A stretch of DNA of 64,000 nt from Thermus amyloliquefaciens (GTDB lineage: Bacteria; Deinococcota; Deinococci; Deinococcales; Thermaceae). The notes beneath the pieces are model-generated. The model was not told the origin of the DNA. It saw only the letters and a list, made by a program, of their open reading frames with translations, and ran no database searches. Positions 1,167 through 63,437 of the stretch are shown piece after piece. The first letter of the stretch is position 1; each line of letters opens with the position of its first letter. The DNA lies in assembly GCF_000744885.1 (NCBI RefSeq), contig NZ_JQMV01000003.1:186001-250000 (forward strand). The letters are read 5' to 3'. A program made the translations under genes and the position numbers.

Positions 1167-1172
1167 TACAAT
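1167..1172 (+). promoter_or_regulatory. -10 element of leaderless mgsA promoter
   Basis: TACAAT followed by six bases (GCCCCC) and then the ATG of mgsA. No Shine-Dalgarno sequence fits, so the transcript probably starts at or next to the start codon. Confidence 0.6.
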
Positions 1173-1178
1173 GCCCCC

Positions 1179-1556
1179 ATGAAGGCCTTGGCCCTCATCG
1201 CTCACGATGCCAAGAAGGGGGAGATGGTGGCCTTCTGCCAACGGCACCGGGCCCTCCTTGCCCGCTTCCCCCTCCTGGCCACGGGCACCACGGGGGAGCG
1301 CATCGCCGAGGCCACGGGGCTTCCCGTGGAGCGGGTGCTCTCGGGGCCTTTGGGGGGGGACCAGCAGATCGGGGCCCGGGTGGCGGAGGGCAGGGTGCTG
1401 GCGGTCCTCTTCTTCCAAGACCCCCTCACCCCCAAGCCCCACGAGCCCGACATCCAGGCCCTCATGCGGGTTTGCAACGTGCACGGGGTGCCCTTGGCCA
1501 GCAACCCCCAGGCGGCGGAGGCCCTGGTCCCCTGGCTCCAGGCCCAGGTGGGCTAA
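1179..1556 (+). CDS. mgsA: Methylglyoxal synthase
   Basis: Converts dihydroxyacetone phosphate to methylglyoxal and phosphate, a glycolytic bypass. The 125-residue protein has the family motifs: LIAHD at residues 7-11, the phosphate-binding TGTTG at 36-40, GDQQIG with Asp61, DPL with Asp81, His88 and Asp91. It is shorter than the roughly 150-residue E. coli enzyme, chiefly at both ends. The ATG at 1179 was chosen over an upstream GTG because homology begins there and a -10 hexamer ends six bases before it. It runs convergent with comM, overlapping by 4 bases at the stops. Confidence 0.93.
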
Positions 1557-3037
1557 AGGTTCCTTCGGTAGGCCAGGGCCTCGGCCATGTGGTTTTCGTT
1601 CACCTCCTCCGAGCCCTGGAGATCGGCGATGGTGCGGGCCACCCGGAGGAGGCGGTCGTAGCTTCGGGCGGAAAGGAGCATCCGCTTGGCCGCGGCCTGC
1701 AGGAGGGCTTCCGCACCCGGGGCCAGGCGCACGTGCTCCCTCAGGGCCTTTCCCGCCAGTTCCCCGTTGGGCCTTCCCTGGCGGGAGAGCATCCGTTCCC
1801 GGGCCCTTAGGACCCGTTCCCGCACCGCCTCGGTGCTCTCCCCTTCGGGGGCGCGGGCCAACTCGGCCGGGGTTAAGCGGGGCACCTCCACCACCAGGTC
1901 AAACCGGTCCAAAAGAGGCCCGGAGATCTTCCCCGCGTAGCGCTGCCGGCTAGCAGGGGTGCAGGTGCAGGCCCTTTCGGGATCCCCGTACCAGCCGCAG
2001 GGGCAGGGGTTCATGGCCGCCACCAGGAGGAAGCGGGCGGGGAAGGTGAGGCTGGCCTTGGCCCGGGAGACGGTGACCACCCCGTCCTCCAGGGGCTGGC
2101 GGAGGGCTTCCAGGGCGTCCCGGGAGAACTCGGGGAACTCGTCCAGGAAAAGCACCCCCCGGTGGGCCAAGGAGACCTCCCCGGGCTTGGGGATGGCCCC
2201 GCCCCCGATGAGCCCGGCGTAGCTCACCGTGTGGTGGGGGGCGCGGAAAGGGGGGGTGCGCACCAGGCCCCTAAGGATTTGCCCGGCGGCGGAGTGGATG
2301 CGGCTCACCTCGAGGGCGGCCTCCTGGGAAAGGGGAGGGAGCAAAAAGGGGAGGCGCCTGGCCAGCATGGTCTTCCCCGAGCCGGGGCTTCCCACCATGA
2401 GGAGGTGGTGGTAGCCGGCGGCGGCGATCTCCAGGGCGCGCTTGGCCTTGGCCTGGCCCTTCACGTCCCGGAGGTCCAGGGCCTCCAAGGCGGCCACGGG
2501 GTCCTCGGGTGTCGCCCTCTTGGGCTCCTCTTCCCCCTTGAGGTAGGCCACCGCCTGCCGGAGGCTTTCCGCCCCCCAGACCTCCACCCCCTCCACCAAG
2601 GCGGCCTCCTTGGCGCTTTCCAGGGGAAGGAGGAGCTTTTTCCCCTCGGCCAGGGCCCCCAAGGCCAGGTTCACCGCCCCGGGCACCGGGCGTAGGCTCC
2701 CGTCCAGGCCCAGCTCCCCGGCCACCGCCAGCCCCGAAAGGCCCTCCAGGGGCACCACCCCCTGGGCGGCCAGGAGGCCCAGGGCGATGGGCAGGTCAAA
2801 GTGGCTTCCTTCCTTACGGAGTTCCGCCGGGGCCAGGTTCACCACCACCCGGGCCTGGGGGTAGGGGAAGCCCGAGTTCTTGAGGGCGGCCCTTACCCTT
2901 TCCCGGCTTTCCTCCACCGCCTTGTCCGGCAACCCCACCAGGGCGTAGCTGGGAAGCCCAGGGCTGACATCCACCTCCACGGTGACGGGAACCGCGTCCA
3001 GACCGAAGAGGGTGTAGCTTCTAACCTGGGCTAGCAT
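1553..3037 (-). CDS. comM: ComM/YifB-family Mg-chelatase-like AAA+ ATPase
   Basis: Hexameric AAA+ helicase of the ComM family, which promotes branch migration during natural transformation; Thermus is highly transformable. The 494-residue protein shows an N-terminal Lon-S5-like domain ([17 protein letters not shown]), Walker A GSPGSGKT at 216-223, Walker B LFLDEF, and the family's Cys cluster [15 protein letters not shown]. The C-terminal lid contains [20 protein letters not shown]. Start ATG at 3037 has a -10 hexamer six bases upstream, so it may be translated from a leaderless mRNA. It is divergent from the Fic gene. Confidence 0.93.
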
Positions 3038-3043
3038 GGAAGG

Positions 3044-3049
3044 AGTTTA
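3044..3049 (-). promoter_or_regulatory. -10 element of leaderless comM promoter
   Basis: Reading the minus strand, TAAACT is followed by CCTTCC and then the comM ATG, the same 6-base spacing seen elsewhere in this window. Confidence 0.6.
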
Positions 3050-3108
3050 TCACAGGGTTGTCAGTTTTGCGGGGGGGTACCGTTTGGTATACAGGGGGCC
3101 GGAGGCCC

Positions 3109-3114
3109 TATCAT
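3109..3114 (+). promoter_or_regulatory. -10 element of leaderless fic promoter
   Basis: TATCAT followed by AGGGCC and ATG. I see no clear -35 hexamer at 17 bases. Confidence 0.6.
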
Positions 3115-3120
3115 AGGGCC

Positions 3121-5330: not shown

Positions 5331-5331
5331 A

Positions 5332-7027: not shown

Positions 7028-7081
7028 GGGGGCATTCTTTCATAAGTTCCAGGCCTCTGACCAGTAGGTCAGCGCTTCCCC

Positions 7082-7115: not shown

Positions 7116-7133
7116 GGCGCGGAAGGAGGTCCT

Positions 7134-10155: not shown

Positions 10156-10158
10156 GAT

Positions 10159-10252: not shown

Positions 10253-10558
10253 ATGCGCAAGTACGAGGTGAACATCATCCTGAGCCCCAACCTGGACCAG
10301 ACCCAGCTCGCCCTGGAGAAGGAGGTCATCGGTAAGGCCCTCGAGGCCCATGGGGCCCGGGTGGAGAAGGTGGAGGAGTGGGGGGTGCGCCGCCTGGCCT
10401 ACCCCATCGCCAAGGACACCCAGGGCTACTTCCTCTGGTACCAGGTGGAGATGCCTGAAGACCGGGTGAACGACCTGGCCCGGGAGCTCCGCCTGCGCGA
10501 CAACGTGCGCCGGGTCATGGTGGTGAAAACCCAGGAGCCCCTCCTCACCAAGGCGTAG
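10253..10558 (+). CDS. rpsF: 30S ribosomal protein S6
   Basis: Primary rRNA-binding protein of the 30S platform, which pairs with S18. The 101-residue length and MRKYEVNIILSPNLDQTQL match Thermus S6, a standard folding model. ATG at 10253 was chosen over an upstream GTG because AAGGAGGTG (10241-10249) lies at the right distance. First gene of the rpsF-ssb-rpsR-rplI operon. Confidence 0.97.
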   Translation: MRKYEVNIILSPNLDQTQLALEKEVIGKALEAHGARVEKVEEWGVRRLAYPIAKDTQGYFLWYQVEMPEDRVNDLARELRLRDNVRRVMVVKTQEPLLTKA

Positions 10559-10567
10559 ACTGTTCTC

Positions 10568-12122: not shown

Positions 12123-12155
12123 GGGCTCCTGGAACCCAGGAGCCCTTAAGCTTTT
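12123..12155 (+). terminator. Rho-independent terminator of the rpsF-rplI operon
   Basis: GGGCTCCTGG (12123-12132) pairs perfectly with CCAGGAGCCC (12136-12145) around a three-base loop, followed by TTAAGCTTTT. The trailing tract also contains the putative -10 of the next gene. Confidence 0.9.
12147..12152 (+). promoter_or_regulatory. -10 element of leaderless SDR gene promoter
   Basis: TAAGCT followed by TTTCCC and ATG. It lies inside the T-rich tail of the preceding terminator. Confidence 0.5.
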
Positions 12156-12158: not shown

Positions 12159-14884
<2,726 letters not shown>

Positions 14885-17575: not shown

Positions 17576-17584
17576 GACGCCATC

Positions 17585-18970
17585 CTACATTTCCAGGAAG
17601 AGGAGCTCGGGGTTTTCCAAAAGCCGGATCACCTCCCGGGTGAACATGGCCGCCTCGGCCCCGTCCACCAGGCGGTGGTCAAAGGAGAGGGAGAGGTACA
17701 TGATCTCCCGCACCCCGATGGAGCCATCGGGCAGGACCCAGGGGCGCTTGCGGATGGAGTGCACCCCTAAAATGGCGGCGTCCGGGACGTTGATGATGGG
17801 GAAGCTCATGAGGGCCCCCACGGAGCCGATGTTGGTGACCGTGAAGGTGGACCCCGTGACCTCCTCGGGGGAAAGCCTCCCTTCCCGGGCCTTGGCGGAA
17901 AGCTCGGCGATCTCCCGGGCCAGCTCCAGGAGGCTTTTCCGGTCCACGTCCCGCACCACGGGCACGATCAGGCCCCTTTCCGTGGCCACCGCCAGGCCCA
18001 GGTGGTAGTAGCGCTTGTAGACCACCTCCTGCCGCTCCTCGTCCAGGCTGGTGTTCAGCATGGGGAACTTCTTCAGGGCCCGCACCACCGCCTTGAAGAT
18101 GAAGGGGAGGTAGGTGAGCCTCACCCCTTGGCGCTCGGCCTCGGGCTTCAAGCGCTCCCGGAGGGCCACCAGCTCCGTGAGGTCGGCCTCGTCCACGTTC
18201 AGGGTGCGCACGGTGTAGAGGTGGCTCTGCCAAAGCCCCTGGGCGATGGTGCGGCGGATGCCCCTAAGGGGAACGCGCTCCTCCAGCTCCTCGTAGCCCT
18301 TGGGGGGGAGGTAGCGGGGCGGGGGAGGGAAGCCGGGGGCTGGGGCGGGAGGGGCTTCCCGGGGAGCCTCGGGGACGGGGGTGGGGGAGGGCCTGGCCCG
18401 CTTCTCCGCGTAAGCCCGCACGTCCTCCACCCGGATGCGGCCCATGGGGCCGGAGCCGGGTACCTCCTCGAGGGGGATGCCCAGCTCCCGGGCCAGCTTC
18501 CTGGCGGCGGGTACCGCCAGCACCCGGCCTGGGGCTTTGCCTTCCTGGGGGACTTGTCCGGGCGGGGCGCTGAGGAAGGGGTTCTTCACCGCCACCTGGG
18601 TGGTGTCGGGCTTGAAGAGGGAGAGGTCCTCCTTTTCCTCCTTCGGGGGAAGCCCAGGCTCAACGATGGAGCGCTCTTCCACCGCTTGCACCGGCGGGGC
18701 TTCCGGTTCCTTTACCCCGGCCACCGCCTCCCCGGGCTCCGCCAGGAGGGCGATGGGGGCGTGGACCTTCACCACCTCCCCCTCCTTGGCCAGCTTCTTC
18801 AGGAGTACCCCCTCGTAGGGGGAGGGTAGCTCCACCGTGACCTTGTCGGTCATCACCTCCACGAAGGGCTGGTCCTTTTTGAGGTAGTCCCCTTCCTCCA
18901 CCAGCCACTTTAGGATCTCGCCTTCCACCACGCTTTCCGCCAGTTCGGGCATGAGGATTTCCTTGGGCAT
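17585..18970 (-). CDS. Branched-chain 2-oxoacid dehydrogenase E2 (dihydrolipoyl acyltransferase)
   Basis: Core acyltransferase of the complex, 461 residues. Lipoyl domain at 1-80 with the lipoylated Lys43 in EVMTDKVTVELPSP; a long Pro/Ala linker; an E1/E3-binding domain around 150-185 (VPAARKLARELGIPLEEVPGSGPMGRI); a second linker; and the catalytic domain from about 225 with DHRLVDGAEA near the C-terminus (His and Asp of HxxxD). The linker between the lipoyl and binding domains is unusually long (about 70 residues). ATG at 18970 is only 7 bases after hicA. Confidence 0.94.
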   Translation of the reverse strand: MPKEILMPELAESVVEGEILKWLVEEGDYLKKDQPFVEVMTDKVTVELPSPYEGVLLKKLAKEGEVVKVHAPIALLAEPGEAVAGVKEPEAPPVQAVEERSIVEPGLPPKEEKEDLSLFKPDTTQVAVKNPFLSAPPGQVPQEGKAPGRVLAVPAARKLARELGIPLEEVPGSGPMGRIRVEDVRAYAEKRARPSPTPVPEAPREAPPAPAPGFPPPPRYLPPKGYEELEERVPLRGIRRTIAQGLWQSHLYTVRTLNVDEADLTELVALRERLKPEAERQGVRLTYLPFIFKAVVRALKKFPMLNTSLDEERQEVVYKRYYHLGLAVATERGLIVPVVRDVDRKSLLELAREIAELSAKAREGRLSPEEVTGSTFTVTNIGSVGALMSFPIINVPDAAILGVHSIRKRPWVLPDGSIGVREIMYLSLSFDHRLVDGAEAAMFTREVIRLLENPELLFLEM

Positions 18971-21619: not shown

Positions 21620-21625
21620 TAGGAT
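21620..21625 (+). promoter_or_regulatory. -10-like element of rlmH
   Basis: TAGGAT followed by GGAGGC and GTG. The GGAGG could instead be an SD, with transcription from TATACC near 21608; the two readings cannot be separated by sight. Confidence 0.4.
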
Positions 21626-21631: not shown

Positions 21632-22045
21632 GTGCGCCTTAGGGTGGTGGCGGTGGGCAAACCCAGGCTGGCCTATGCCCGGCTGGGGGTGGAGGAGTAC
21701 GCGAGGCGTATACAAAAGTACGCCCCCCTCGAGGTCCAGTTCGTCAAGGAGGCTCGGGAGCTTCTCCCAAAGGCGGAGGGGCACCGCGCGGTGGTCCTGG
21801 ACGAAAGGGGGAGGCTTTTCACCACGGAGGGGCTTCTGGAGGCCCTGAGGCGCTGGGAGGGGGAGCGGGTGGCCTTTTTGGTGGGGGGTGCCGAGGGCTA
21901 CCCGGAAGGGGTGCGGGAGCGGGCCGACCTCCTCCTTGCCCTCTCCCCCCTTACCCTGCAGCACGAGCTGGCCCTTTTGGTCCTCATGGAACAGCTTTAC
22001 CGGATCCTGACCTTAAGGGCCGGGCATCCTTACCATCGGCCATGA
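21632..22045 (+). CDS. rlmH: 23S rRNA pseudouridine-1915 N3-methyltransferase
   Basis: SPOUT methyltransferase of 137 residues acting on the 70S ribosome at helix 69. Typical features are MRLRVVAVGKP, YARRIQKYAPLEV, the knot-forming VAFLVGGAEGYPEGVRERADLLLALSPLTL and the C-terminal EQLYRILTLRAGHPYHRP. GTG start at 21632. Ends with an ATGA overlap into the zincin gene. Confidence 0.94.
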   Translation: MRLRVVAVGKPRLAYARLGVEEYARRIQKYAPLEVQFVKEARELLPKAEGHRAVVLDERGRLFTTEGLLEALRRWEGERVAFLVGGAEGYPEGVRERADLLLALSPLTLQHELALLVLMEQLYRILTLRAGHPYHRP

Positions 22046-22440: not shown

Positions 22441-22813
22441 CCCCCTCCCGCAAGGGGCGCCGCTCGGCAAACCCTCCCGCCAGGGGATGGTAATGGGCCA
22501 CCTCGGGCTCGCCTTCCTGCCAGCAGAGGAAGACCACCTCACCCCCGACCCGGGCGGGGAAGTCCACCAGGCCCCGGTCCAGGTCCTTGAGGAAGACGCC
22601 CAAGGAGGCCAGGTAGCGGGCGTCGGCCTCCAGGGAGCCCAGGAGGAAACGGGCCTCCTCCTCCAGGGCCCTTTTCTCCAGCCCGCGGGCCTCGGGAAGC
22701 CGGGCCTGCACCTCGGAAAGCTCCTTCCGGGCCTGCCGCATCTGGGAGAGGACCCGCCGGATCTCGGGCAAGAGGGCGTCGGCCTCTTCCTTGGTAAAGA
22801 TGCGGGCAAACAT
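22385..22813 (-). CDS. DUF2203-family protein
   Basis: 142 residues. FTKEEADALLPEIRRVLSQMRQARKEL begins a helical hairpin, followed by GVFLKDLDRGLVDFPARVGGEVVFLCWQEGEPEVAHYHPLAGGFAERRPL, the hallmark of DUF2203; its function is unknown. A -10-like TAGGAT lies on the minus strand at 22824-22829. It overlaps the zincin gene tail to tail by 56 bases. Confidence 0.82.
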   Translation of the reverse strand: MFARIFTKEEADALLPEIRRVLSQMRQARKELSEVQARLPEARGLEKRALEEEARFLLGSLEADARYLASLGVFLKDLDRGLVDFPARVGGEVVFLCWQEGEPEVAHYHPLAGGFAERRPLREGANGLLPQAPRPGETRPGA

Positions 22814-22864
22814 ACCTGAGCTTATCCTAGCACAAACGCTTTGGAAAATCTAAGCCTGGCTTAC

Positions 22865-23780: not shown

Positions 23781-24827
23781 TCAGGCCAGTTCCACCTGGG
23801 AGAGGTCCCCCAGGATCAGGCGGTGGGCCCGGGGGAGGCCGTTCCGGCTTTTCACCCCGGCCCCCACCCCCAGGATGCTTTCCTGCAGGCGCAGGGTCAC
23901 GTTCTCCAAGACGGCGTGGTCCTCGAGGATGGAGTACTCCACCTCCGAGCCCACCACCTTGGCCCCCGGTCCCAAGGAGGTGAAGGGCCCGATGTAGGCC
24001 CCCTCCACCACCGCACCCTCCCCGATGAAGGCGGGGCCGATCACCGTGCTTTTCCGGACCCTGGCCCCCTTCGCCACCACCACCCGGCCGGTGAGCTGGC
24101 TTTCCGCCACCTCCCCCTCCACCCGGGGTAAGAGTTCTTCCAGAAGGAGGCGGTTGGCGTCCAGGAGGTCCTGGGGGCGGCCGGTATCCTTCCACCAACC
24201 CTCCACCTCCACCCCCACCACCCTCTTCCCCCGGTCGATGAGGCCCTGGATGGCGTCGGTGATCTCGTACTCCCCTCGGGCGGAGGGCTGGAGCCCCTCT
24301 ATGACCTCCAGGACCTCCGGGGTGAAGACGTAAACCCCCGCCACCGCCAGGTCCGAGGGGGGCTCCTTGGGCTTTTCCAGAAGGCGCACGATCCTTTCCC
24401 CCTCCAGCACCGCCACCCCGAACTGGCTGGGGTTTTCCACCCGCACCAGGGCGATCACCGCGCTCACCCCTGGGGTGAAGGCCTGGAGGAAGCGGGTGAT
24501 CCCCTTCTGGAAGAGGTTATCCCCCAGGTAGAGGACGAAGGGGCTTTGGCCCAGGAAGTCCCGGGCCACGGCCACCGCATGGGCCAGCCCCTGGGGCTCC
24601 TCTTGCAGGATGTACCGCACCGGGTAGCCCGAAAGGGCTTCCCGGATGTCCTTCTCCGTTTCCGGGGAGACCACCACCCCGATCTCCCTTATGCCCGCCT
24701 GCAGGAGGTTCTCCAGGCCGTAGTGCAGGATGGGCCTTCCCGCCACCCGGATCACCGGCTTGGGCCTCGTGTGGGTGAGGGGACGGAGCCGGGTGCCCCG
24801 TCCGGCAGCCAGAATGAGTCCTTTCAC
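23781..24827 (-). CDS. Sugar-1-phosphate nucleotidyltransferase (long RmlA-like, with left-handed beta-helix)
   Basis: 348 residues. The N-terminal nucleotidyltransferase domain starts KGLILAAGRGTRLRPLTHTRPKP, with YILQEEPQGLAHAV, YLGDNLFQKG and GWWKDTGRPQDLLDANR. The C-terminal hexapeptide repeats (VVVAKGARVRKSTVIGPAFIGEGAVVEG) form a left-handed beta-helix. This is the long glucose-1-phosphate thymidylyltransferase type, probably making dTDP-glucose or a related donor; the exact sugar is not certain. GTG start at 24827; the -10 TATACT lies seven bases upstream. Confidence 0.88.
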   Translation of the reverse strand: MKGLILAAGRGTRLRPLTHTRPKPVIRVAGRPILHYGLENLLQAGIREIGVVVSPETEKDIREALSGYPVRYILQEEPQGLAHAVAVARDFLGQSPFVLYLGDNLFQKGITRFLQAFTPGVSAVIALVRVENPSQFGVAVLEGERIVRLLEKPKEPPSDLAVAGVYVFTPEVLEVIEGLQPSARGEYEITDAIQGLIDRGKRVVGVEVEGWWKDTGRPQDLLDANRLLLEELLPRVEGEVAESQLTGRVVVAKGARVRKSTVIGPAFIGEGAVVEGAYIGPFTSLGPGAKVVGSEVEYSILEDHAVLENVTLRLQESILGVGAGVKSRNGLPRAHRLILGDLSQVELA

Positions 24828-24834
24828 GCAAGGG

Positions 24835-24840
24835 AGTATA
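24835..24840 (-). promoter_or_regulatory. -10 element of leaderless nucleotidyltransferase promoter
   Basis: TATACT on the minus strand, then seven bases, then GTG. The embedded GTATAC is its own reverse complement and also provides TATACC six bases before the divergent methyltransferase ATG. Confidence 0.55.
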
Positions 24841-24848
24841 CCCGTAAA

Positions 24849-25652
24849 ATGAGGGAAAGGATGCTCAGGGCCTCCGTGCGCATGGCTTACGCTTACGACC
24901 GCCTCCGGGCCTATCCGCCGGAGGTGGCGGGCCGCATCGCCACCGCCATAGGGAACGCCCTTGGGGTGCGGGGGGAGGAGGCGGTGCTCCTGGAGCTTGG
25001 GGTGGGGACCGGGCGCATCGCCTTGCCCCTCATCGCCCGGGGCTACCGCTACCTGGCCCTGGACAAGGACCCGGCCATGCTGGAGGTCTTCCGCCAGAAG
25101 GTGGCCGGGGTCATGCGCAAGGTGCGCCTCCTGGAGGCCGATGCCCGGGCCATTCCCCTGCCCGATGAGAGCGTGCACGGGGTCATCGTGGTCCACCTCT
25201 GGCACCTCCTCCCCGACTGGCCCAAGGCCCTGGCCGAGGCCCTAAGGGTGCTGAAGCCGGGGGGGGTGCTCCTGGAGGGCTGGGACGAGATGGCGGCCGA
25301 GGAGGAGCTCAGGATCCAGGAGAGGTGGCGGGCCTTGGTGGAGGCGGAGGGGGTGCGGGTGGTGCGGGGCCTGCACAAAAGGCGGCTGGAAGAGGTGGAG
25401 GAGGCCTTGAAACGGCTTGGCCTCAGGCCCAAGGCGAAACAGGTGGTCCAGTGGCGGGAGGAGCGCACCCTGCGCCAGGCCCTCGAGGCCCTGGAGGAAA
25501 GGCTTTACTCCTTCACCCAGGCGGTTCCCGAGGAGGTGCACGAGCGCGTCATGCCCGGGCTCTGGGCCTGGGCGGAAAGGGAGTTCGGCCACCTGGACCG
25601 CCCCTTTACCCTGGAAAGGAGCTTCACCCTGCGCACCACCCGCATGGCCTAG
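24849..25652 (+). CDS. SAM-dependent methyltransferase (class I)
   Basis: 267 residues. The Rossmann motif VLLELGVGTGRIALPLIARGYRYLALDKD is motif I with the acidic SAM-ribose residue after it; LEADARAIPLPDESVHGVIVVHLWHLLPD and ALRVLKPGGVLLEGWDE follow as motifs II-IV. The substrate is unknown. ATG at 24849 was chosen; ATG at 24861 is a close alternative. It is divergent from the nucleotidyltransferase, with only 21 bases between start codons. Confidence 0.87.
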   Translation: MRERMLRASVRMAYAYDRLRAYPPEVAGRIATAIGNALGVRGEEAVLLELGVGTGRIALPLIARGYRYLALDKDPAMLEVFRQKVAGVMRKVRLLEADARAIPLPDESVHGVIVVHLWHLLPDWPKALAEALRVLKPGGVLLEGWDEMAAEEELRIQERWRALVEAEGVRVVRGLHKRRLEEVEEALKRLGLRPKAKQVVQWREERTLRQALEALEERLYSFTQAVPEEVHERVMPGLWAWAEREFGHLDRPFTLERSFTLRTTRMA

Positions 25653-25719: not shown

Positions 25720-25725
25720 TATGCT
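25720..25725 (+). promoter_or_regulatory. -10 element of leaderless yjbQ promoter
   Basis: TATGCT, then GAGGGG, then ATG. A loose hairpin (GCGCCCCCA/TGGGGGCGC, 25652-25692) just upstream may end the methyltransferase transcript. Confidence 0.55.
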
Positions 25726-28306: not shown

Positions 28307-28312
28307 AGTGTA
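28307..28312 (-). promoter_or_regulatory. -10 element of leaderless relA/spoT promoter
   Basis: TACACT, five bases (GAAGA), then ATG on the minus strand. The rest of the gap to 28434 holds GC-rich inverted repeats (CTTGG/CCAAG near 28410-28425) that may terminate the upstream operon, but no gene. Confidence 0.5.
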
Positions 28313-28434: not shown

Positions 28435-30738
28435 TTAGGAGGCGAGTTCCAGGAGGAAGGCGGAAAGGCTGGTTTTTTCCAGCAAGGCCACCAGGGTGCG
28501 GCCTTGGCGCGGGGCTAGGACCAAGGCCTTCTCCCCCAGGAGGATGGCCGCAGGCCCCCGGGTCTGGCGGAGGCTTTTATCCAGCTGGTCCAGGGCCTGG
28601 ACCAGGGCCTCCAGGGGCTCCCTGGGCAGGGGCAAGGCCTCCCCCAGGTAGCCCAGCACCTCCACCCCGGGAAGGCGCAAGGGGGCAAGGTCCGCCTCCA
28701 AGGAGGCCACCTGGGGGCCGGAGGGCACGGCCTGGGCCCTTTCCTGGTCAAAGACCTTCAAGAGGGCCTCCAGGTCCTCGCCCTTGATCTCCCGGAGCAC
28801 GGCCTTGGCGGCCTCCTGTTCCCTTTCCAGCTCCCGCAGGAGGGCCTCCGCCTGGCCCAGGGTCTTCTCCACCTGGAGGAGGCCCTGGGGCCCAAGACGG
28901 GGAAGCTTTTCCTGGGCGCTTTTCAGCACCGGCAGCAGGGACCTTAGGCGGCGGTTCGTTTCGCTCTGGAACCCCTCGAGGCGGGCGTGGGTCTGGAAAA
29001 AGGCGGTGAGGCGGGTGGTGAGCTCCTCCCGCTTGGCCTCCATCCGCCGCTTCAGGGCCTCCAGGGCCCGGGCGATGGGGGTGGGATCGGGGAGGGGCTT
29101 GCCCTTTTCCTCGGCGATGGCCCGCAAGACCCCTTCCCCTCCGAAGCCGCGGAACCGCTCCGCCAGGGCCTGGAGGCGGCCCAGCTCCAAAAGGGCCTCC
29201 TGCCGAGCCTTGGCCCTGGCCTCCTCCAGGCTGGTTTGCAGGGCTCCAAGATCGGGGAGGCTTCCTTGGGCCAAAAGGGCCTCCGCCTCGGCCACCTTTT
29301 CCTTCAGGCCCAGGGCCAGGGCCTCGGGCTTTAGGGCCTCCAGGGCCCTGGCCGCCTCGCCGAGCTTGGCCCTTAGGGCGGCCTCCTCCCCTTGGGCCCT
29401 AAGGAGCTCGGCGTACCGGGCCCGCACCTCGGGAAGCCTTTGGGGAAGGGCTTCCAGGGGGAGGGCCTGCAGTTCTTCCAAAAGCGGGCGGAAGGCCTCC
29501 CCCTTGGCCCTCAGCTCCTCCACCAGGGCCTCCTTCTCCTGGAGGAGGCGCTTTGCCTCCTCCGCCCTGCGCCGGGCCTCCGCCTCGAGGCCCCTGAGCT
29601 CCTCCTCCAGGGGCAAAAGGTCAGGGTAGCCCCCCTCCTCCAGGGTTTCCTCCGCCAGCCCTAGGGCCCGTTGCAGGGGGAGCTTGGCCTCCTCGGGCAG
29701 GGGGAGGAGGCGCAAGGCCTCCTGGAGCTGGATCAGGCGGGCCCGCTTTTCCGCCCGCAGGTTTTTCTCGGCCTCCTGGAAGGCCTCCTCCAGGGCCTTG
29801 AGCTTCTCCCCCACGGGGGTGCCCGCATCCAAGAGGGCCTGGACCTCCGCCAGGAGGGGGCTTACCGTGGCCCTTTCCACCAGGGGGGCATAGCGGCTTA
29901 AGAGCTCCTCCAGCCTGCGCCTCTCCTCCTCCACCTCCAGGGCCAGGATCCGCTGGCTGGCCTCCTGGGACAGGGCCTCGAGGTCCACCACCAGCTCCCC
30001 TTCCAGCTCGGAGGCTTCCTCCACGGTGAGGAAGACGTCGGTGGGGGGGGAGGAAGGGGTTTCCGCCCGGGGTGGGGTTTCCTGGGTTTCAAAGACGATC
30101 TCCGGCAGGGTGTGGGCCTTGACGGCGCTGGACTCCAGGAACTTTCGGAGTTCCAGGGCCAGGTTCCTGGCCCGCTCCACCTCCGCCGGGGCAAAAACCC
30201 CCTCTTTATGGGCCCGTTGGATGGTCTCCACCAGGGTTTCCAGCCGCCGCACCTTGGGCCCTCCCAGGTGGCGCACCCTTTCCAGGGCCTCCTCCAGGTG
30301 GGCCAGGTCCTTGGCCTGGCGCAGGAGGGCCTCCTCCAGCCTCTCCTCCAGGGCCTCCAAAAGCTCCTCCCCCTCCGCCAGGAGGCCGGGATCCGGGGCT
30401 TGCCGCAGGCGGTTGACCAGGGCCCGCAGGCGTCCCACCTCCGGCCAGTCCACATAGAGCCCGAAGCGCTTCAAGCCCTCTTCCAGCTTGGCCAGCCTGG
30501 CCCCTTGGCCCTCGAGCTGGGCCAGCACCCCCTCCACCAGCCGCCGGGCCTCCTCCGGGCGCATGCGGGCCTGGAGCTCGCGGTACACCAGGCCCTTCAG
30601 GAGATGGGCCCCATCCGCCGGGGTGAGCTCGGAAGGCCGCTTGCCCAGCCGCTTTAGCCCCTCCTGCAACACCGCCTCGGCCCGGGTGCCCAGGTGGGGC
30701 CCTATGGCCTCCAGGATGGTTCCGTACACGTCCGGCAT
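28435..30738 (-). CDS. Large coiled-coil protein with possible C-terminal Roadblock-like domain
   Basis: 767 residues of unknown function. A helical N-terminal domain (MPDVYGTILEAIGPHLGTRAEAVLQEGLKRLG) is followed by about 550 residues of heptad-rich helix dominated by Leu, Glu, Ala and Arg, with a Pro-rich break near 215-235. The last 90 residues (LPGVEVLGYLGEALPLPREPLEALVQALDQLDKSL to VALLEKTSLSAFLLELAS) alternate strands and helices and end like Roadblock/LC7 (MglB-type) domains. No ATPase head is present, so it is not an SMC. It is cotranscribed with MscS (2-base gap). Heavy base bias gives long antisense open frames that are not genes. Confidence 0.82.
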   Translation of the reverse strand: MPDVYGTILEAIGPHLGTRAEAVLQEGLKRLGKRPSELTPADGAHLLKGLVYRELQARMRPEEARRLVEGVLAQLEGQGARLAKLEEGLKRFGLYVDWPEVGRLRALVNRLRQAPDPGLLAEGEELLEALEERLEEALLRQAKDLAHLEEALERVRHLGGPKVRRLETLVETIQRAHKEGVFAPAEVERARNLALELRKFLESSAVKAHTLPEIVFETQETPPRAETPSSPPTDVFLTVEEASELEGELVVDLEALSQEASQRILALEVEEERRRLEELLSRYAPLVERATVSPLLAEVQALLDAGTPVGEKLKALEEAFQEAEKNLRAEKRARLIQLQEALRLLPLPEEAKLPLQRALGLAEETLEEGGYPDLLPLEEELRGLEAEARRRAEEAKRLLQEKEALVEELRAKGEAFRPLLEELQALPLEALPQRLPEVRARYAELLRAQGEEAALRAKLGEAARALEALKPEALALGLKEKVAEAEALLAQGSLPDLGALQTSLEEARAKARQEALLELGRLQALAERFRGFGGEGVLRAIAEEKGKPLPDPTPIARALEALKRRMEAKREELTTRLTAFFQTHARLEGFQSETNRRLRSLLPVLKSAQEKLPRLGPQGLLQVEKTLGQAEALLRELEREQEAAKAVLREIKGEDLEALLKVFDQERAQAVPSGPQVASLEADLAPLRLPGVEVLGYLGEALPLPREPLEALVQALDQLDKSLRQTRGPAAILLGEKALVLAPRQGRTLVALLEKTSLSAFLLELAS

Positions 30739-30740: not shown

Positions 30741-31796
30741 TTACGCTCCCCCTTCCAGCTTAAGGGGTTCGCCGAAGTAGAGCTTCTGGTGGGGGTAGGG
30801 GATCTCGATCCCCTCCCGGTCCAGGCGGTTTTTTATGCGGCGGCGGAACTCCCGGGCCACCGCCCACTGCTGGGCGGGCTTGGTGTTGAAGAGGACCCGG
30901 ATCAGCACGGCGCTTTGCCCCAGGTCCTGCACCCCCAGGACCTCCGGGGCCTCCGTGAACCGCTCCCGCCACTCCGGGTCCCTGTAGAAGCGCTCCACCT
31001 CGTCGCGGAAGACGGCCAGCACCCGGTCCAGATCCTCCTTGTAGGCCACCCCCACGTCCACCACCGCCCGGCTCCACTCCTGGGTGAGGACCGTCACCTG
31101 GCGCACCTCGGAGTTGGGGAGGAAGTGGACCCGGCCTTCCAGGTCCCGGAGGACGGTAAGGCGCAGGTTGAAGCGCTCCACCTGCCCCCCCACCCCGTTG
31201 ATGAGCACGATATCCCCCACCCCGTACTGGTCCTCCAGGAGGATGAAGAAGCCGTTGATGAAGTCCCGGATCAGGTTCTGGGCGGCGAAGCTCACCGCCA
31301 GGCCCACCACCCCGGCCCCCGCCAGGAGGGCGGTGACGTTGAAGCCCAGGTTGGAAAGGAGGAAAAGCCCGCCCAGGGTGAGGATGGCCATCTTCAGCAC
31401 CGAGTCGGCCACCGCCCTCAGGGTTTTGCGGCGCACCGCCTCCCGGGTGAGCTCCCCTTCGGGCTCGGGGAGGCGGGCAAGGAGGAGGGGGATGAGGCGG
31501 TAGCCCAAAAAGGTGAGGCCCACCACCGCCAAAACCGCCAGGCCCCGGCTTCCCAGCCACTGGGTGAGGGCCCTGCCCCAGGTGGCCAGGGGTTCTAGGG
31601 GCCAGGCCAGGGCGTGGGCCAGGTAGCTTAGGGCCAGGAGGGCCACCACCCCCCACCAGAGGAGGCCCAGGGCCTGGAAGAAGCGGTCGTCCCGCTCCGT
31701 GGGGGTGAGGCGCCCCAGGGCGTTCAGGGCCTTGGCGCCGTAGCGGCCCAGGAGCCAGGCCAGGAGAAGGGCAAGGGCTACGTGTAGGGCCACCAT
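30741..31796 (-). CDS. Mechanosensitive ion channel, MscS family
   Basis: 351-residue inner-membrane channel. Four or so transmembrane helices end in the pore helix TALLAGAGVVGLAVSFAAQNLIRDFINGFFILLEDQY, then the cytoplasmic beta domain VGDIVLINGVGGQVERFNLRLTVLRDLEGRVHFLPNSEV and the alpha/beta vestibule ending IEIPYPHQKLYFG. It releases solutes under osmotic downshock. First gene of a two-gene unit with the coiled-coil protein, divergent from hemQ. Confidence 0.94.
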   Translation of the reverse strand: MVALHVALALLLAWLLGRYGAKALNALGRLTPTERDDRFFQALGLLWWGVVALLALSYLAHALAWPLEPLATWGRALTQWLGSRGLAVLAVVGLTFLGYRLIPLLLARLPEPEGELTREAVRRKTLRAVADSVLKMAILTLGGLFLLSNLGFNVTALLAGAGVVGLAVSFAAQNLIRDFINGFFILLEDQYGVGDIVLINGVGGQVERFNLRLTVLRDLEGRVHFLPNSEVRQVTVLTQEWSRAVVDVGVAYKEDLDRVLAVFRDEVERFYRDPEWRERFTEAPEVLGVQDLGQSAVLIRVLFNTKPAQQWAVAREFRRRIKNRLDREGIEIPYPHQKLYFGEPLKLEGGA

Positions 31797-31802
31797 GCCG
31801 GG

Positions 31803-31808
31803 AGTATA
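31803..31808 (-). promoter_or_regulatory. -10 element of leaderless mscS promoter
   Basis: TATACT, six bases (CCCGGC), ATG on the minus strand. It lies only nine bases from the opposite-facing hemQ -10. Confidence 0.65.
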
Positions 31809-31816
31809 TCCCCGGG

Positions 31817-31822
31817 TATATT
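31817..31822 (+). promoter_or_regulatory. -10 element of leaderless hemQ promoter
   Basis: TATATT, six bases (GGGGGC), ATG. Confidence 0.65.
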
Positions 31823-31828
31823 GGGGGC

Positions 31829-32581
31829 ATGGGAGGTTACATTCCCGAGCCCACCTTCACCCTCGAGGGCTGGCACATCCTCCACGACTTCCGCCGCTTG
31901 GACTATCCCGCTTGGTTTGCCGCTTCCCCCGAGGAGCGCCAGGCGGCCTGGGCGGAGCTGAGGGAGGTCCTGAAGGGGTGGGAGGAGGTGGAGGCGGAGG
32001 GCAGGGGGTCCTTTGGCGTGTACCAGGTGGTCACCCCCAAGGCCGACCTCCTCTTCTTAAACCTGCGGGAGAGCCTGGACGCCCTTTTGGAGGTGGAGGC
32101 CAGGCTCAACAAGAGCCTGTTCGTCCGCTACCTAAGCCCTGCCTACGGGTTTTACTCCGTGGTGGAGCTGGGAAGCCAGACCGGGCCCCTGGACCCCGAG
32201 GCGCCTTACATCAAGCCCCGCCTCACCCCCCGGGTGCCCAAGGGGGGGTATGTCTGCTTCTACCCCATGAACAAAAGGCGGCAGGGGCAGGACAACTGGT
32301 ACCTGCTTCCCGCCCGGGAGCGGGCCGAGCTCATGAAGGCCCACGGGGAGACGGGGAGGAAGTACCAGGGCAAGGTCCTGCAGGTGATCAGCGGGGCCCA
32401 GGGCCTGGACGACTGGGAGTGGGGGGTGGACCTCTTCAGCGAGGACCCCATCCAGTTCAAAAAGATCGTCTACGAGATGCGCTTTGACGAGGTCTCCGCC
32501 CGCTTTGGCGAGTTCGGGCCCTTCTACGTGGGCAAGTACCTGGGGGAGGAGGCCTTGGGCCGCCTCCTGGGGGTGCTATGA
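31829..32581 (+). CDS. hemQ: Coproheme decarboxylase (HemQ, chlorite-dismutase family)
   Basis: Last enzyme of the coproporphyrin-dependent haem pathway; it converts coproheme to haem b. The 250-residue pentamer-type sequence has the catalytic Tyr145 in YPMNKRR and a likely proximal haem ligand His172 in KAHGETGRKYQGKV, followed by ISGAQGLDDWEWGVDLFSEDP. The distal position, near SGAQGLDDW, carries Gln and not the Arg of true chlorite dismutases, supporting the HemQ assignment. The next gene overlaps by ATGA. Confidence 0.93.
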   Translation: MGGYIPEPTFTLEGWHILHDFRRLDYPAWFAASPEERQAAWAELREVLKGWEEVEAEGRGSFGVYQVVTPKADLLFLNLRESLDALLEVEARLNKSLFVRYLSPAYGFYSVVELGSQTGPLDPEAPYIKPRLTPRVPKGGYVCFYPMNKRRQGQDNWYLLPARERAELMKAHGETGRKYQGKVLQVISGAQGLDDWEWGVDLFSEDPIQFKKIVYEMRFDEVSARFGEFGPFYVGKYLGEEALGRLLGVL

Positions 32582-34988: not shown

Positions 34989-34995
34989 GCCCTAG

Positions 34996-35001
34996 AGGGT
35001 A
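34996..35001 (-). promoter_or_regulatory. -10 element of leaderless apbE promoter
   Basis: TACCCT on the minus strand, seven bases, then ATG. Confidence 0.5.
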
Positions 35002-35010
35002 GGGGCCGGC

Positions 35011-35054
35011 GGTTAGGCGGGGGTTAGGGCTTGGGCATAACCCTGGTCTAACCC
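35011..35054. promoter_or_regulatory. Operator: two oppositely oriented pairs of GGTTA repeats
   Basis: GGTTAG occurs at 35011-35016 and 35022-35027, starts 11 bases apart. On the opposite strand GGGTTA occurs twice, also 11 bases apart (35054-35049 and 35043-35038). One helical turn between direct repeats is the usual layout for OmpR/PhoB-type regulators. The block lies between the two divergent -10 elements and covers the -35 region of the response regulator, so it likely controls both units. Confidence 0.65.
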
Positions 35055-35062
35055 GCAGGCGG

Positions 35063-35068
35063 CATACT
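35063..35068 (+). promoter_or_regulatory. -10 element of leaderless response-regulator promoter
   Basis: CATACT, six bases, then GTG at 35075. Confidence 0.5.
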
Positions 35069-35074
35069 AAAGCC

Positions 35075-38255: not shown

Positions 38256-38261
38256 ATTGTA
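38256..38261 (-). promoter_or_regulatory. -10 element of leaderless paaG promoter
   Basis: TACAAT on the minus strand, six bases (GGGGCC), then ATG. Confidence 0.6.
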
Positions 38262-47626: not shown

Positions 47627-47684
47627 CACCCGAAGGGGCGTATACTTATACACACCCCCCTTCGGGGGTAGACTAGAGGTCGGC

Positions 47685-48893
47685 ATGAAGATCGTCCTGG
47701 CATACTCCGGCGGGTTGGACACCAGCATCATCCTCAAGTGGCTCAAGGAGACCTACGGGGCCGAGGTCATCGCCTTCACCGCGGACATCGGCCAAGGGGA
47801 GGAGGTGGAGGAGGCCCGGGAGAAGGCCCTAAGGACCGGGGCCTCCAAGGCCATCGCCCTGGACCTCAAGGAGGAGTTCGTGCGGGACTTCGTCTTCCCC
47901 ATGTTCCGCGCGGGGGCGGTGTACGAGGGGTACTACCTCCTGGGCACCGCCATCGCCCGTCCCCTCATCGCCAAGCACCTGGTGCGGATTGCGGAGGAGG
48001 AGGGGGCCGAGGCCATCGCCCACGGGGCCACGGGCAAGGGCAACGACCAGGTGCGCTTTGAGCTCACCGCCTACGCCCTGAAGCCTGATATCCGGGTCAT
48101 CGCCCCCTGGCGGGAGTGGAGCTTCCGGGGGCGGCAGGAGATGATTGCCTATGCCGAGGCCCACGGCATCCCCGTGCCCGTGACCCAGGAGAAGCCCTAC
48201 TCCATGGACGCCAACCTCCTGCATATTTCCTACGAAGGGGGGGTCCTGGAGGACCCCTGGGCCGAGCCCCCCAAGGGGATGTTCCGCATGACCGTGGACC
48301 CCGAGGAAGCCCCCGACACCCCCGAGTACGTGGAGGTGGAGTTCTTTGAAGGCGACCCGGTGGCGGTGAACGGGGAGCGCCTTTCCCCCGCCGCCCTCCT
48401 CCAGAGGCTCAACGAGATGGGCGGGCGGCACGGGGTGGGCCGGGTGGACATCGTGGAGAACCGTTTTGTAGGCATGAAGTCCCGGGGGGTCTACGAGACC
48501 CCGGGGGGGACGATCCTCTACCACGCAAGGCGGGCGGTGGAAAGCCTCACCCTGGACCGGGAGGTCCTGCACCAAAGGGACACGCTCTCCCCCAAGTACG
48601 CCGAGCTGGTCTACTACGGCTTCTGGTACGCCCCGGAGCGGGAGGCCCTCCAGGCCTACTTTGACCACGTGGCCCAGGCGGTCACCGGGGTGGCCCGGCT
48701 CAAGCTCTACAAGGGGAACGTGTACGTGGTGGGGCGGAAGGCCCCCAAGAGCCTTTACCAGAAGGACCTGGTCTCCTTTGACGAGCTTGGGGGCTACGAC
48801 CAGAAGGACGCGGAGGGCTTCATCCGCATCCAGGCCCTGCGCCTAAGGGTGCGGGCCATGGCGGAGAGGGGAAAGGGGGAGCATGGCGCATAG
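47685..48893 (+). CDS. argG: Argininosuccinate synthase
   Basis: 402 residues. Joins citrulline and aspartate using ATP. The N-type ATP-pyrophosphatase loop [16 protein letters not shown] is at 5-20; [25 protein letters not shown] and [10 protein letters not shown]-like [18 protein letters not shown] are conserved. ATG at 47685 has AGAGG seven bases upstream. Overlaps argH by 11 bases. Confidence 0.96.
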
Positions 48894-50271: not shown

Positions 50272-50806
50272 GGCGAAGGGACTGGAGTTTTCCCCGGTGG
50301 TCCTGCCGGAGGTGCGCCCCCAGGCGGCGGTGGAGCTCAGGAAGGCCAGGCTTGCCGATGTGGACGCCATCTACTGGCTCATCCGCTACTGGGCGGAGAA
50401 GGGGCTCATGCTGGTCCGGAGCCACAGCCACCTCTACGAGAACATCCGCGACTTCCAGGTGCTGGAGGACGAGGACGGGCGGATCGTGGGCACCGTGGCC
50501 CTGCACGTGCTCTGGCGGGACCTGGCGGAGATTAGGGGCCTGGCGGTGCACCCCCAGAGGCAGGGCCAGGGCCTCGGGCGCTGGCTGGTCCTGGGGGCGG
50601 AGCGGGAGGCCCGGGACCTGGGGCTTCCCCGGGTCTTCGCCTGGACCCTCCAGGTGGGTTTCTTCCGCTCCTTGGGCTACCAGGTCACCACCCGGGAGGC
50701 CCTGCCCCCCAAGGTGTGGAGCGAGTGCAACGCCTGCCCCTTCTACGAGAACTGCCGGGAGATTGCCGTCATCAAGGGGCTTTCCCCGGGGCCCTTCGGG
50801 GGCTAG
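50264..50806 (+). CDS. GNAT acetyltransferase, probably short-form N-acetylglutamate synthase
   Basis: 180 residues. GNAT core with acetyl-CoA loop [15 protein letters not shown] and FFRSLGYQ; the C-terminal [19 protein letters not shown] resembles the Cys-containing end of ArgA-type enzymes. Its position right behind argH supports a role in making N-acetylglutamate for arginine synthesis, as in genomes with argH-argA fusions. TTG at 50264 was chosen because AAGGAGGTGG precedes it; this is unusual, and a later start is possible. Confidence 0.75.
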
Positions 50807-50809
50807 AAT
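50804..50809 (+). promoter_or_regulatory. -10 element of leaderless carA promoter
   Basis: TAGAAT, seven bases, then ATG at 50817. The hexamer starts in the stop codon of the acetyltransferase gene. Transcription of carA may thus be independent of the arginine genes. Confidence 0.5.
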
Positions 50810-53692: not shown

Positions 53693-53698
53693 AGCTTA
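53693..53698 (-). promoter_or_regulatory. -10 element of leaderless fhs promoter
   Basis: TAAGCT on the minus strand, six bases (TAGCCC), then GTG. The TnpB-related gene ends only 14 bases upstream, so its insertion may have replaced the original -35 region. Confidence 0.5.
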
Positions 53699-56921: not shown

Positions 56922-56925
56922 GAAG

Positions 56926-56950: not shown

Positions 56951-56955
56951 AGCTT

Positions 56956-58062: not shown

Positions 58063-58065
58063 GGC

Positions 58066-59495: not shown

Positions 59496-59502
59496 GAAGG
59501 GT

Positions 59503-59508
59503 ACTTTA
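59503..59508 (-). promoter_or_regulatory. -10 element of leaderless LptC-like gene promoter
   Basis: TAAAGT on the minus strand, seven bases, then ATG. Confidence 0.5.
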
Positions 59509-59547
59509 CCCGATGCTCCTGAGGAGCGGCTTAGGGCTTCCTTGGCG

Positions 59548-59553
59548 TATAGT
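59548..59553 (+). promoter_or_regulatory. -10 element of leaderless O-antigen-ligase-like gene promoter
   Basis: TATAGT, six bases (GTCCCC), then GTG at 59560. Confidence 0.6.
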
Positions 59554-59559
59554 GTCCCC

Positions 59560-60999: not shown

Positions 61000-61409
61000 A
61001 GGGGTGGGCCTGGCTTTGGGGCCTGGGGCTTTTTGCCTTAGGGGTTGGCGGGGCCCTTTGGTCCTTGAACCAGGCCTTCCGCTTAGCCCCCCTCACCCAG
61101 GAGGCCTGCACCCCAGGGCCCCTTCCCCAGAGGGCCGAGCTATGGGCCAACGGGGTGGTGGAGATCCCCTTGTGCCGGGAGGCGGAGGTGGGGCTCCTCC
61201 TGGAGGGCACCCTGGCCCAGGGGAAGGGGCCCTATGCCCTGGTGGTGGAGGGAGGCCGGGTGCTTTGGCAGGGGGAGGTGCGGGGGGTAAGGGAGGTCTG
61301 GGTGAGGACCAAGGGGAATGGCACCCTGGTTCTCGCCTTCACCAACGACCTTTACCAGCCCCCCGAGGACCGCAACCTTTTCCTCCGGGCCTTGCGGGTG
61401 GTCTATTAG
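60996..61409 (+). CDS. Membrane-anchored protein with carbohydrate-binding-like domain
   Basis: 137 residues. An N-terminal helix (AWLWGLGLFALGVGGALWSL) is probably an anchor. The C-terminal half has LVLAFTNDLYQPPEDRNLFLRALRV, which resembles the calcium-binding signature of CBM36/60 xylan-binding modules (ND-Y...DRNL). It overlaps the ligase-like gene by GTGA, so it may present or recognise the glycan handled there. The family assignment is by motif only. Confidence 0.65.
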   Translation: MKGWAWLWGLGLFALGVGGALWSLNQAFRLAPLTQEACTPGPLPQRAELWANGVVEIPLCREAEVGLLLEGTLAQGKGPYALVVEGGRVLWQGEVRGVREVWVRTKGNGTLVLAFTNDLYQPPEDRNLFLRALRVVY

Positions 61410-61824
61410 AGGAAGACCAGGGCCAGCACCACCTCGAGGGCGGTGAAGGCCAGCATGGCCTTGTTCAAAGCGGTGTGGATCTCCCTTCGCGTCTCTTTCT
61501 GGACGGCCTCCCTCTTTTCCTCAGACCTTCCCTTGCGGGCTCCCGGCTCGGTGTGGGTTTAGCCCGTCAGGAGAGCCTGCACTTACTGATAGGGTCTAGC
61601 CTGCTCTCCGCCGGGCGCTCCTCCAGGGAGCCGATGCGGTTTTCCCAATAGGCCCGGGTTTCTCTTAGCTCCCCTTTCACCTCTTCCCGCGAGGCGTCCA
61701 TACGCCGGGAGAGGTTTTTCACCCAGGGGGGAAGGACCCGGATGGTGGTCTCCACCGCCCCTGCCAGCTTCTCCACCCTCTCCGCGAACCGCTTCTGCTT
61801 TGGCTTAGCGGAGGGAAAGGCCAA
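61406..61824 (-). pseudogene. Broken gene for a coiled-coil protein with C-terminal membrane anchor
   Basis: Two fragments in different frames. The first, from about 61824 to TGA at 61567, gives VEKLAGAVETTIRVLPPWVKNLSRRMDASREEV, then a charged helix. The second, about 61562 to TAA at 61406, gives RSEEKREAVQKETRREIHTALNK followed by the hydrophobic tail AMLAFTALEVVLALVFL. Together they resemble small Thermus coiled-coil proteins with a tail anchor. The frames differ by one base class and a stop separates them. It overlaps the end of the LptD-like gene. Confidence 0.55.
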
Positions 61825-63424
61825 AGGAAAGGCTTTGCCCCGTGGCCTCGTCGTACTGCCCCTTCAGGATGTTCTGCCACCGCACCTCGTAGGCCAAGCA
61901 GCCATCGTAGAGGCGGAGGGTGAGGCCCAGGCGGGTGAGGCCCTCCTGGTTTAGCCCCACCTCGGGGGCGAGCCAGAGGGCCTGGCAGCAGGTGCGGTCG
62001 GGGAGGGGCATGGCGTAGGAGAGGCGCACCTCCTCGAGGCTTCCCCGCAGATAGGCCAGGCGGAAGCTCCCCAGAGCCTCGTCCCGGTAGCTTCCCTCCA
62101 GGCGGTCCAGGCGCTGGCCCAAGGGGTTTTCCAGGGTGTAGCCCAGGCCCCAGGGGCCCAGGGTCCCCTCCAGCTGGAGGCGCTGGAACTCGTCCCGGTG
62201 TTCCCAGGTGAAGGGGGGGGTGGGGGAAAGGGCCTCGAGCCTCCCCGCATAGGAGGCCCTTAAGGTGAGGTCCCCTTCCCGGAAGGTGCCCTCCAGGCTT
62301 CCCCCTAAGGCCAGGTAGGGCTCGTAGCCGGCGAAGGGATAGGTGGCCAGGAGGAGGGCCGGGCTCAGGGTGAGGCCGAGGGGCCCCTCCCTGAAGGCGT
62401 GGCGGTAGGCGCCCTCCAAGCCCAAGGTGAGGCCCCGGCTCCTTCCCGTTTCCGCGTAGCGCAGGAAGGGCCTCAGGGTGAGGTTCTCCAGGCGGAGGGT
62501 GGGGGTGTAGCGGGCCTCTAGCCTCGGGGTGTCCAGGTCGGGGGGAAGGGGGCTTGCGGCGAAGAAGAAGTCCTCCCACTGGGCCTGCACCCCTGGGGCG
62601 TACCCAAACCGCACCTCAGCCCCCCGGTTTCCCTCCCTTAGGCCCAGGCGCAGGGCCTCTTCAGGGGTCCCGAGCCCCGTGGCCAGGAGGGTGAGGCTTC
62701 GCTCCCAGCGGCCGATCTCCTCCCCGGGCTTGGGCAAGGGGAAGTCTTGGAGCCCCAGGGTCCAGCCCCCGGTGTCGGAGCTTGCCAAGACCAGGGGGCT
62801 TCTGAGCTCCGGCCGCCGGTTGGCGTTGGCCCGGGCCTCCCCCAGGGGCACCTCGAGGCCCCAAAGCCCCAAGGTGGCCTCCCCCTTGAGCTCCCCGGTA
62901 CCCACCAGGAAGGTGGCCTCGTCCATGGCCAGGCGCACGTCCTCCCCGCAGGGGCAGGGGGTGGCCAGGAACCCCTTGAGCCGGGCCTCCTCCCGGGTGA
63001 AGGTGGCCTCCTTGGCCCGCACCCGGTAGGCGGGGCTTTCCAGGAGGATCCCTTCCCCCTGGAGGGGGGCCTCGAGGCTAAGCCGCTCCACCTGGGCCTT
63101 CAGCCTTCCCCGGCTCAGGCGCACCCCCTGAAGCGCCTTCCCCAAAAGGGCCTCCGCCTCCACCCGCCAACCCTGGGCCTCCCCCCGGAGGTTTTCCGCC
63201 CGGAAGGTCCCCTCGGCCTCCAGGTACCGGATGGCGGGGGCTTCCAGGTAAAGCCCCTCCCTTTCCAAGCAGGCCCGGCCCTCAAAGACCAGGACCTCCC
63301 CGTCGTAGGCCATCTCCTCCCCGCCCAAAAGGCCCTCCTCCGTTTCCAGGGTGTAGGGCCTTTGCCCGCAAGGGCCCGCCAGAGCCAACCCCAAGAGGGT
63401 CCCCAAGACCAAGAGCCGCTTCAT
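61805..63424 (-). CDS. LptD/OstA-like outer-membrane protein
   Basis: 539 residues. Signal peptide (MKRLLVLGTLLGLALAGPC), an OstA-like beta domain (about 25-160: YDGEVLVFEGRACLEREGLYLEAPAIRYLEAEGTFRAENL), then a C-terminal barrel of amphipathic strands rich in Tyr, Leu and Arg ending LSFGLSLR. It is shorter than E. coli LptD (about 780 residues). Cysteines near 156-158 and 480 could pair. Likely the outer-membrane exit of an Lpt-type bridge together with the LptF and LptC-like genes. Confidence 0.82.
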   Translation of the reverse strand: MKRLLVLGTLLGLALAGPCGQRPYTLETEEGLLGGEEMAYDGEVLVFEGRACLEREGLYLEAPAIRYLEAEGTFRAENLRGEAQGWRVEAEALLGKALQGVRLSRGRLKAQVERLSLEAPLQGEGILLESPAYRVRAKEATFTREEARLKGFLATPCPCGEDVRLAMDEATFLVGTGELKGEATLGLWGLEVPLGEARANANRRPELRSPLVLASSDTGGWTLGLQDFPLPKPGEEIGRWERSLTLLATGLGTPEEALRLGLREGNRGAEVRFGYAPGVQAQWEDFFFAASPLPPDLDTPRLEARYTPTLRLENLTLRPFLRYAETGRSRGLTLGLEGAYRHAFREGPLGLTLSPALLLATYPFAGYEPYLALGGSLEGTFREGDLTLRASYAGRLEALSPTPPFTWEHRDEFQRLQLEGTLGPWGLGYTLENPLGQRLDRLEGSYRDEALGSFRLAYLRGSLEEVRLSYAMPLPDRTCCQALWLAPEVGLNQEGLTRLGLTLRLYDGCLAYEVRWQNILKGQYDEATGQSLSFGLSLR

Positions 63425-63431
63425 GTTGGGG

Positions 63432-63437
63432 ATTCTA
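63432..63437 (-). promoter_or_regulatory. -10 element of leaderless lptD-like gene promoter
   Basis: TAGAAT on the minus strand, seven bases, then ATG at 63424. Confidence 0.5.

Follow-up and report, generated by a model that had tools for sequence, protein, structure and literature searches.

Genes led by a TANNNT hexamer were found in all five Deinococcus-Thermus genomes studied by Zheng et al. (2011; PMC3160421), Thermus thermophilus among those named; such TA-led genes made up 36–46% of genes, with the first T about 12 bases before the start. The motif was later described phylum-wide as a '-10-motif' next to open reading frames (ORFs), with reporter and mutational tests in Deinococcus radiodurans and RNA-seq coverage in T. 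thermophilus (Zhong et al., 2025; PMC12340547). Transcription in D. radiodurans was reported to depend on T1, A2 and T6 of the hexamer (PMC12340547). An overlap of the hexamer with a stop codon is not mentioned by Zheng et al. (2011; PMC3160421), nor are stop codons, upstream genes or divergent pairs mentioned by Zhong et al. (2025; PMC12340547). Here we describe the same TANNNT, with its first T again about 12 bases before the start and with the same spacing of about 6–7 bp, in a window of 64,000 nucleotides (positions 186001–250000 of contig NZ_JQMV01000003.1) within a 2.16-Mb Thermus genome. The best explanation, which we hold to be very probably correct, is that TANNNT is a sigma-dependent -10 element giving rise to leaderless mRNAs. 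This reading has already been published for the whole Deinococcus-Thermus phylum, and finding it here is ordinary for that phylum. In a different genus, the same architecture was reportedly mapped by RNA sequencing for the leaderless mRNAs of Deinococcus deserti, in work of de Groot et al. from 2014.

The initial annotation of the window had placed such a hexamer 5–7 bases before 19 genes. All 19 hexamers were located again, 18 as TANNNT and one as CATACT (response regulator), and plausible starts lie downstream of 17. The spacer is 6 bases in 11 cases and 7 bases in six, 5 bases in relA/spoT when counted to ATG 28301, and 6 bases for CATACT. A self-trained codon model, blind to promoters, served to call the genes, and d denotes the number of bases between hexamer and start codon. 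At d = 6–7 before an in-frame start, the hexamer occurs for 20 of the 62 called genes, whereas control distances gave 3.9 genes on average and 8 at most (p ∼ 7e-10); at d = 5–7 it occurs for 23 of 62 genes against 5.6. Genome-level counts come from a sample of 864 kb, made up of the window and 40 further stretches of 20 kb (∼ 40% of this genome). Counting TANNNT at each distance, as the annotation had proposed, gave a positional peak at exactly 6 and 7: the numbers of genes for d = 4 to 10 were 19, 13, 137, 93, 28, 30 and 29, over a background of 20.5 (789 genes). When starts were picked blind to the motif, 102 fell at d = 6 and 54 at d = 7, with a background of 5.7. The peak is seen for in-frame start triplets and is not seen for out-of-frame triplets. 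The strong enrichment claimed for the window is thus borne out there and by the sharp peak in the larger sample. The claimed spacing has to be narrowed to 6–7 bases, since d = 5 showed no enrichment in the 864 kb (13 genes against the background of 20.5).

Orthologues were compared in syntenic stretches of up to 25 other Thermus genomes. For 14 of the 19 claimed genes, TANNNT at 6–7 bases is retained in nearly all orthologues whose aligned position holds a start codon, and the counts given below for these genes refer to that motif in such orthologues. The hexamer columns T1, A2 and T6 are 80–82% identical between species, compared with 37–54% for the bases 5–14 upstream of the hexamer. The annotation had also contrasted these genes with leadered ones such as pntAA and rpsF, and rightly so: among the orthologous starts of pntAA, rpsF and other control genes, TANNNT at 6–7 bases was found in 0 of 103. 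For pntAA, a TATACT lies ∼ 20 bases upstream, together with GGAGG.

The comparison also corrected individual starts. The relA/spoT hexamer (TACACT, 28307–28312, minus strand) stands, but the ATG at 28301 that had been taken as the start does not, being a start codon in only two of 11 orthologues. The next codon, GTG 28298, is conserved and is the likely start; it lies 8 bases from the hexamer, which is found 7–8 bases from the conserved GTG in 10 of 11 orthologues. carA (TAGAAT, 50804–50809, plus strand, before ATG 50817) was rejected and has to be struck from the 19 genes. ATG 50817 is a start codon in one of 24 orthologues; the others begin 6 nt upstream, mostly behind a Shine–Dalgarno (SD) sequence (GGAGG). 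In the window, TAGAAT arises where the preceding gene ends in TAG and ATG 50808 follows on directly. Two further candidates with a hexamer at 5 bases, the zincin gene at 22042 (TACCAT) and the DUF2203 gene (TAAGCT), were discarded as unconserved at that spacing. The approach suggests that start codons (here of relA/spoT and carA) and promoter positions can be fixed across Thermus from sequence alone. As a separate observation, argG (47669–47685) and the DUF2203 gene (22813–22829) carry a conserved TANNNT 9–10 bases before the start, and both are candidates for leaders of 2–4 nt.

The arrangement was most frequent in divergently oriented first genes, 99 of 209 of which carry it (17.8 expected), i.e. 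47%, or 39% after background subtraction. Among co-directional genes it was found in 38 of 127 (7.9 expected; 30%) where the gap exceeds 60 bp, in 35 of 121 (7.8 expected) for gaps of 16–60 bp, and in 55 of 332 (7.8 expected; 17%) for gaps of up to 15 bp. The annotation had called leaderless starts the default for first genes; they are indeed common there, at 47% of the divergent ones, but 'default' overstates the case and the arrangement also occurs inside apparent operons.

The features that emerge from an alignment of 120 sites are the -10, a spacer slightly enriched in G, and the start codon. No clear -35 consensus was seen ∼ 17 bp upstream in these 120 aligned sites, and TTGACA-like matches at spacers of 16–18 barely exceeded those at other spacers; the hallmark of a classical leadered -35/-10 promoter is thus lacking. 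We propose a model where TANNNT would act as the -10 element of a housekeeping (RpoD/sigmaA) promoter. RNA polymerase would start 7–8 bases downstream of the last T of the hexamer, which coincides with the start codon's first base, and the resulting mRNA without a leader would be translated by direct recognition of its 5′-terminal AUG or GUG. In the compact operons of Thermus, the same element would also drive internal genes and would often be built on the TAA or TAG stop of the preceding gene. This leaderless reading is based on the position of the motif, its dependence on frame, its conservation and the absence of an SD; the latter was established by count for 28 of 29 candidates for stop/-10 overlap and by inspection for the sites in the window. 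The annotation had arrived at the same interpretation, which we retain as the best explanation; the attribution to Deinococcus is wrong, as the genome is that of a Thermus, judged by its mgsA protein.

One could instead regard the motif as a translation signal on the mRNA, a substitute for the SD. It does occupy the position of an SD and the two are nearly mutually exclusive, but it is similar to a sigma-70 -10, reaches its highest frequency ahead of divergent first genes and, when the D. radiodurans motif was swapped for a ribosome binding site, expression was abolished and mRNA lowered (PMC12340547); we consider such a role very improbable. More serious, although still unlikely in our view, is the alternative that the promoters are real but that transcripts begin 1–4 bases upstream of the start codon, which would give them very short leaders. 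Start-site choice at sigma-70 promoters shifts by a base or two, and the conserved TANNNT at 9–10 bases before argG (47685) and the DUF2203 gene (22813) would agree with short leaders. The sharp maximum at 6–7 bases, however, fits transcripts that begin with the codon's first base. Several points weigh against the interpretation as leaderless promoters as a whole. TANNNT stands at 6–7 bases before 227 genes (summed over the gene-context classes), and ∼ 41 of these would be expected by chance; the genes come from a home-made codon model, so that some starts are possibly wrong; where the mRNA begins and how it is translated are both inferred from sequence; and a promoter before an internal gene need not be the only promoter of that gene.

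Within operons, the upstream stop codon appears to be part of the signal. In the 864 kb, TAA/TAG outnumber TGA by 49:5 among the stops at the fitting distance, compared with 127:101 elsewhere (p 3e-7). A T at position 6 follows 29 of the 49 fitting TAA/TAG stops, compared with 31 of 127 elsewhere (p 2e-5). These 29 are the candidates for stop/-10 overlap, one of them being the rejected carA. T6 and an SD are nearly exclusive: with T6, 28 junctions lack an SD and one has it, and without T6, nine lack it and 11 have it. For 14 junctions outside the window, picked from those in which the start coincided with that of the codon model or preceded it, four other Thermus genomes were compared. They gave 49 orthologous starts, 43 of which have TANNNT at 6–7 bases; the upstream stop codon opens the TANNNT in 39 of the 49, with the stop alternating between TAA and TAG. 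The window holds two examples, ssb and lpd, both absent from the list of the initial annotation. The -10 of ssb (TAGACT, 10556–10561, plus strand, before ATG 10568) begins with the TAG stop of rpsF, and TAA or TAG followed by ACT at 6 bases is present in 10 of 10 orthologues. That of lpd (TAGGAT, 17582–17587, minus strand, before ATG 17575) begins with the TAG that ends the E2 gene in front, and the motif is found in eight of nine orthologues with a start.

Such overlaps raise the question of base composition, i.e. whether AT-rich hexamers are simply common near starts and stop codons supply the TA upstream of downstream genes. In operons, a TAA or TAG stop does bring a TA to within a few bases of the start that follows, and a small number of cases (carA and the zincin gene at 22042) are due to chance or unconserved. 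The peak is nevertheless limited to two positions and to in-frame starts, T6 is enriched only with a stop at the fitting distance, and T1, A2 and T6 are conserved between species. The positional and conservation tests have already largely refuted an artefact of this kind, and we give it almost no credence.

We suggest instead, and regard it as probable, that in Thermus an upstream TAA or TAG stop doubles as the TA of the -10 of a leaderless downstream gene, that internal operon genes obtain leaderless transcripts of their own in this way, and that the promoter of the neighbour holds the stop to TAA or TAG. If this is true, the stop codon of one gene is constrained by the function of its neighbour's promoter, and genes within operons can be leaderless, against the usual assumption. 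A related situation is the overlap of stop codons with the SD of co-directional genes, where the signal of the next gene likewise shapes the choice of the upstream stop codon; the signal there is an SD, whereas in Thermus it would be a promoter -10 (PMC2784483). With 29 candidates in 864 kb, the overlap is common in the Thermus genome examined. The leaderless peak as such is also present in 400-kb samples from two further lineages of the class, but these gave zero overlaps (G030) and one (G045). Gene calls were fewer there, and the overlap is therefore best called rare rather than absent in these lineages. No description of a stop-codon/-10 overlap was found in the open-licence literature, covered mostly at the level of titles and abstracts, and this is weak evidence that it is new.

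Divergent genes can bring two such elements into close contact. The sample contains 102 divergent pairs, and in 18 of them less than 40 bp separates the two start codons. In seven of the 18 the hexamer stands at 6–7 bases for both genes, and in four the hexamers overlap (for pairs outside the window, according to gene calls only). The window's example of a close divergent pair is mscS/hemQ, with start codons 32 bp apart (31796–31829) and -10 elements back to back. The mscS element (TATACT, 31803–31808, minus strand, before ATG 31796) is present in 15 of 15 orthologues, and that of hemQ (TATATT, 31817–31822, plus strand, before ATG 31829) in 25 of 25. Bidirectional promoters with shared symmetric elements resemble the short Thermus pairs in that divergent transcription arises from overlapping elements; the Thermus pairs differ in that both products are predicted to be leaderless, with start codons as little as 17–35 bp apart (PMC12825309, PMC10268837). 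A shared -10 was also considered for the pair 24827/24849 and was rejected because ATG 24849 lacks conservation: it is directly followed by an in-frame stop in one species, and others have no start codon. A conserved TANAAT overlaps this ATG, the called start of a methyltransferase gene (region 24827–24861), and could serve as the -10 for a start that lies further downstream.

The other sites are distributed over both strands of the window. On the plus strand, TACAAT (1167–1172) lies 6 bases before ATG 1179 of mgsA and TANNNT is at 6 bases in 24 of 24 Thermus orthologues; the mgsA protein is 92% identical to that of Thermus arciformis and 90% to that of T. igniterrae, and some two dozen further Thermus genomes have the gene. 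A fic-family gene (Fic domain, PF02661) has TATCAT (3109–3114) before ATG 3121, identified from its sequence only, with no orthologue in the compared stretches. The SDR gene has TAAGCT (12147–12152) before ATG 12159, and the motif recurs in the two orthologues that have a start codon at the aligned position, six others starting elsewhere. For lipB, named from its position before lipA, TATGCT (13255–13260) lies 7 bases before GTG 13268, with nine of nine orthologues at 6–7 bases. The hexamers of rlmH (TAGGAT, 21620–21625, before GTG 21632) and yjbQ (TATGCT, 25720–25725, before ATG 25732) are kept in 11 of 11 and 20 of 25 orthologues respectively. TATAGT (59548–59553) precedes GTG 59560 of the O-antigen-ligase-like gene, and five of five orthologues have the motif at 7 bases.

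On the minus strand, TANNNT is kept in all orthologues counted for comM (TAAACT, 3044–3049, before ATG 3037; 10 of 10 orthologues), the paaG-like enoyl-CoA hydratase gene (TACAAT, 38256–38261, before ATG 38249; 12 of 12) and fhs (TAAGCT, 53693–53698, before GTG 53686; eight of eight). The nucleotidyltransferase gene has TATACT (24835–24840) 7 bases before GTG 24827, and 23 of 24 orthologues have the motif at 6–7 bases. TAAAGT (59503–59508) lies 7 bases before ATG 59495 of the LptC-like gene, and the motif is found in all four orthologues with a start; the product gave no family match. TAGAAT (63432–63437) lies 7 bases before ATG 63424 of the lptD-like gene and is kept in 13 of 14 orthologues; the product has no Pfam match and the name is taken over from the initial annotation. 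An ORF of 767 amino acids on the same strand (28435–30738) gave no Pfam match at E 1e-5.

The interval between apbE and the response-regulator gene (34989–35074) contains sites of both kinds. TACCCT (34996–35001, minus strand) lies 7 bases before ATG 34988 of apbE and is present in seven of seven orthologues. The degenerate CATACT (35063–35068, plus strand) precedes GTG 35075 of the regulator, and is CATACT in five of six orthologues and GATACT in one. TAACC repeats spaced ∼ 11 bp apart are conserved in all orthologues examined; they lie near -38 and -27 of the regulator start, next to the -35 position and the degenerate -10, and on the apbE side CTAACC occurs at -28 and in some orthologues also at -39. 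The repeats are likely the operator of an OmpR-type response regulator. Because they adjoin the -35 position, we suspect that the promoter of the response-regulator gene is activator-dependent.

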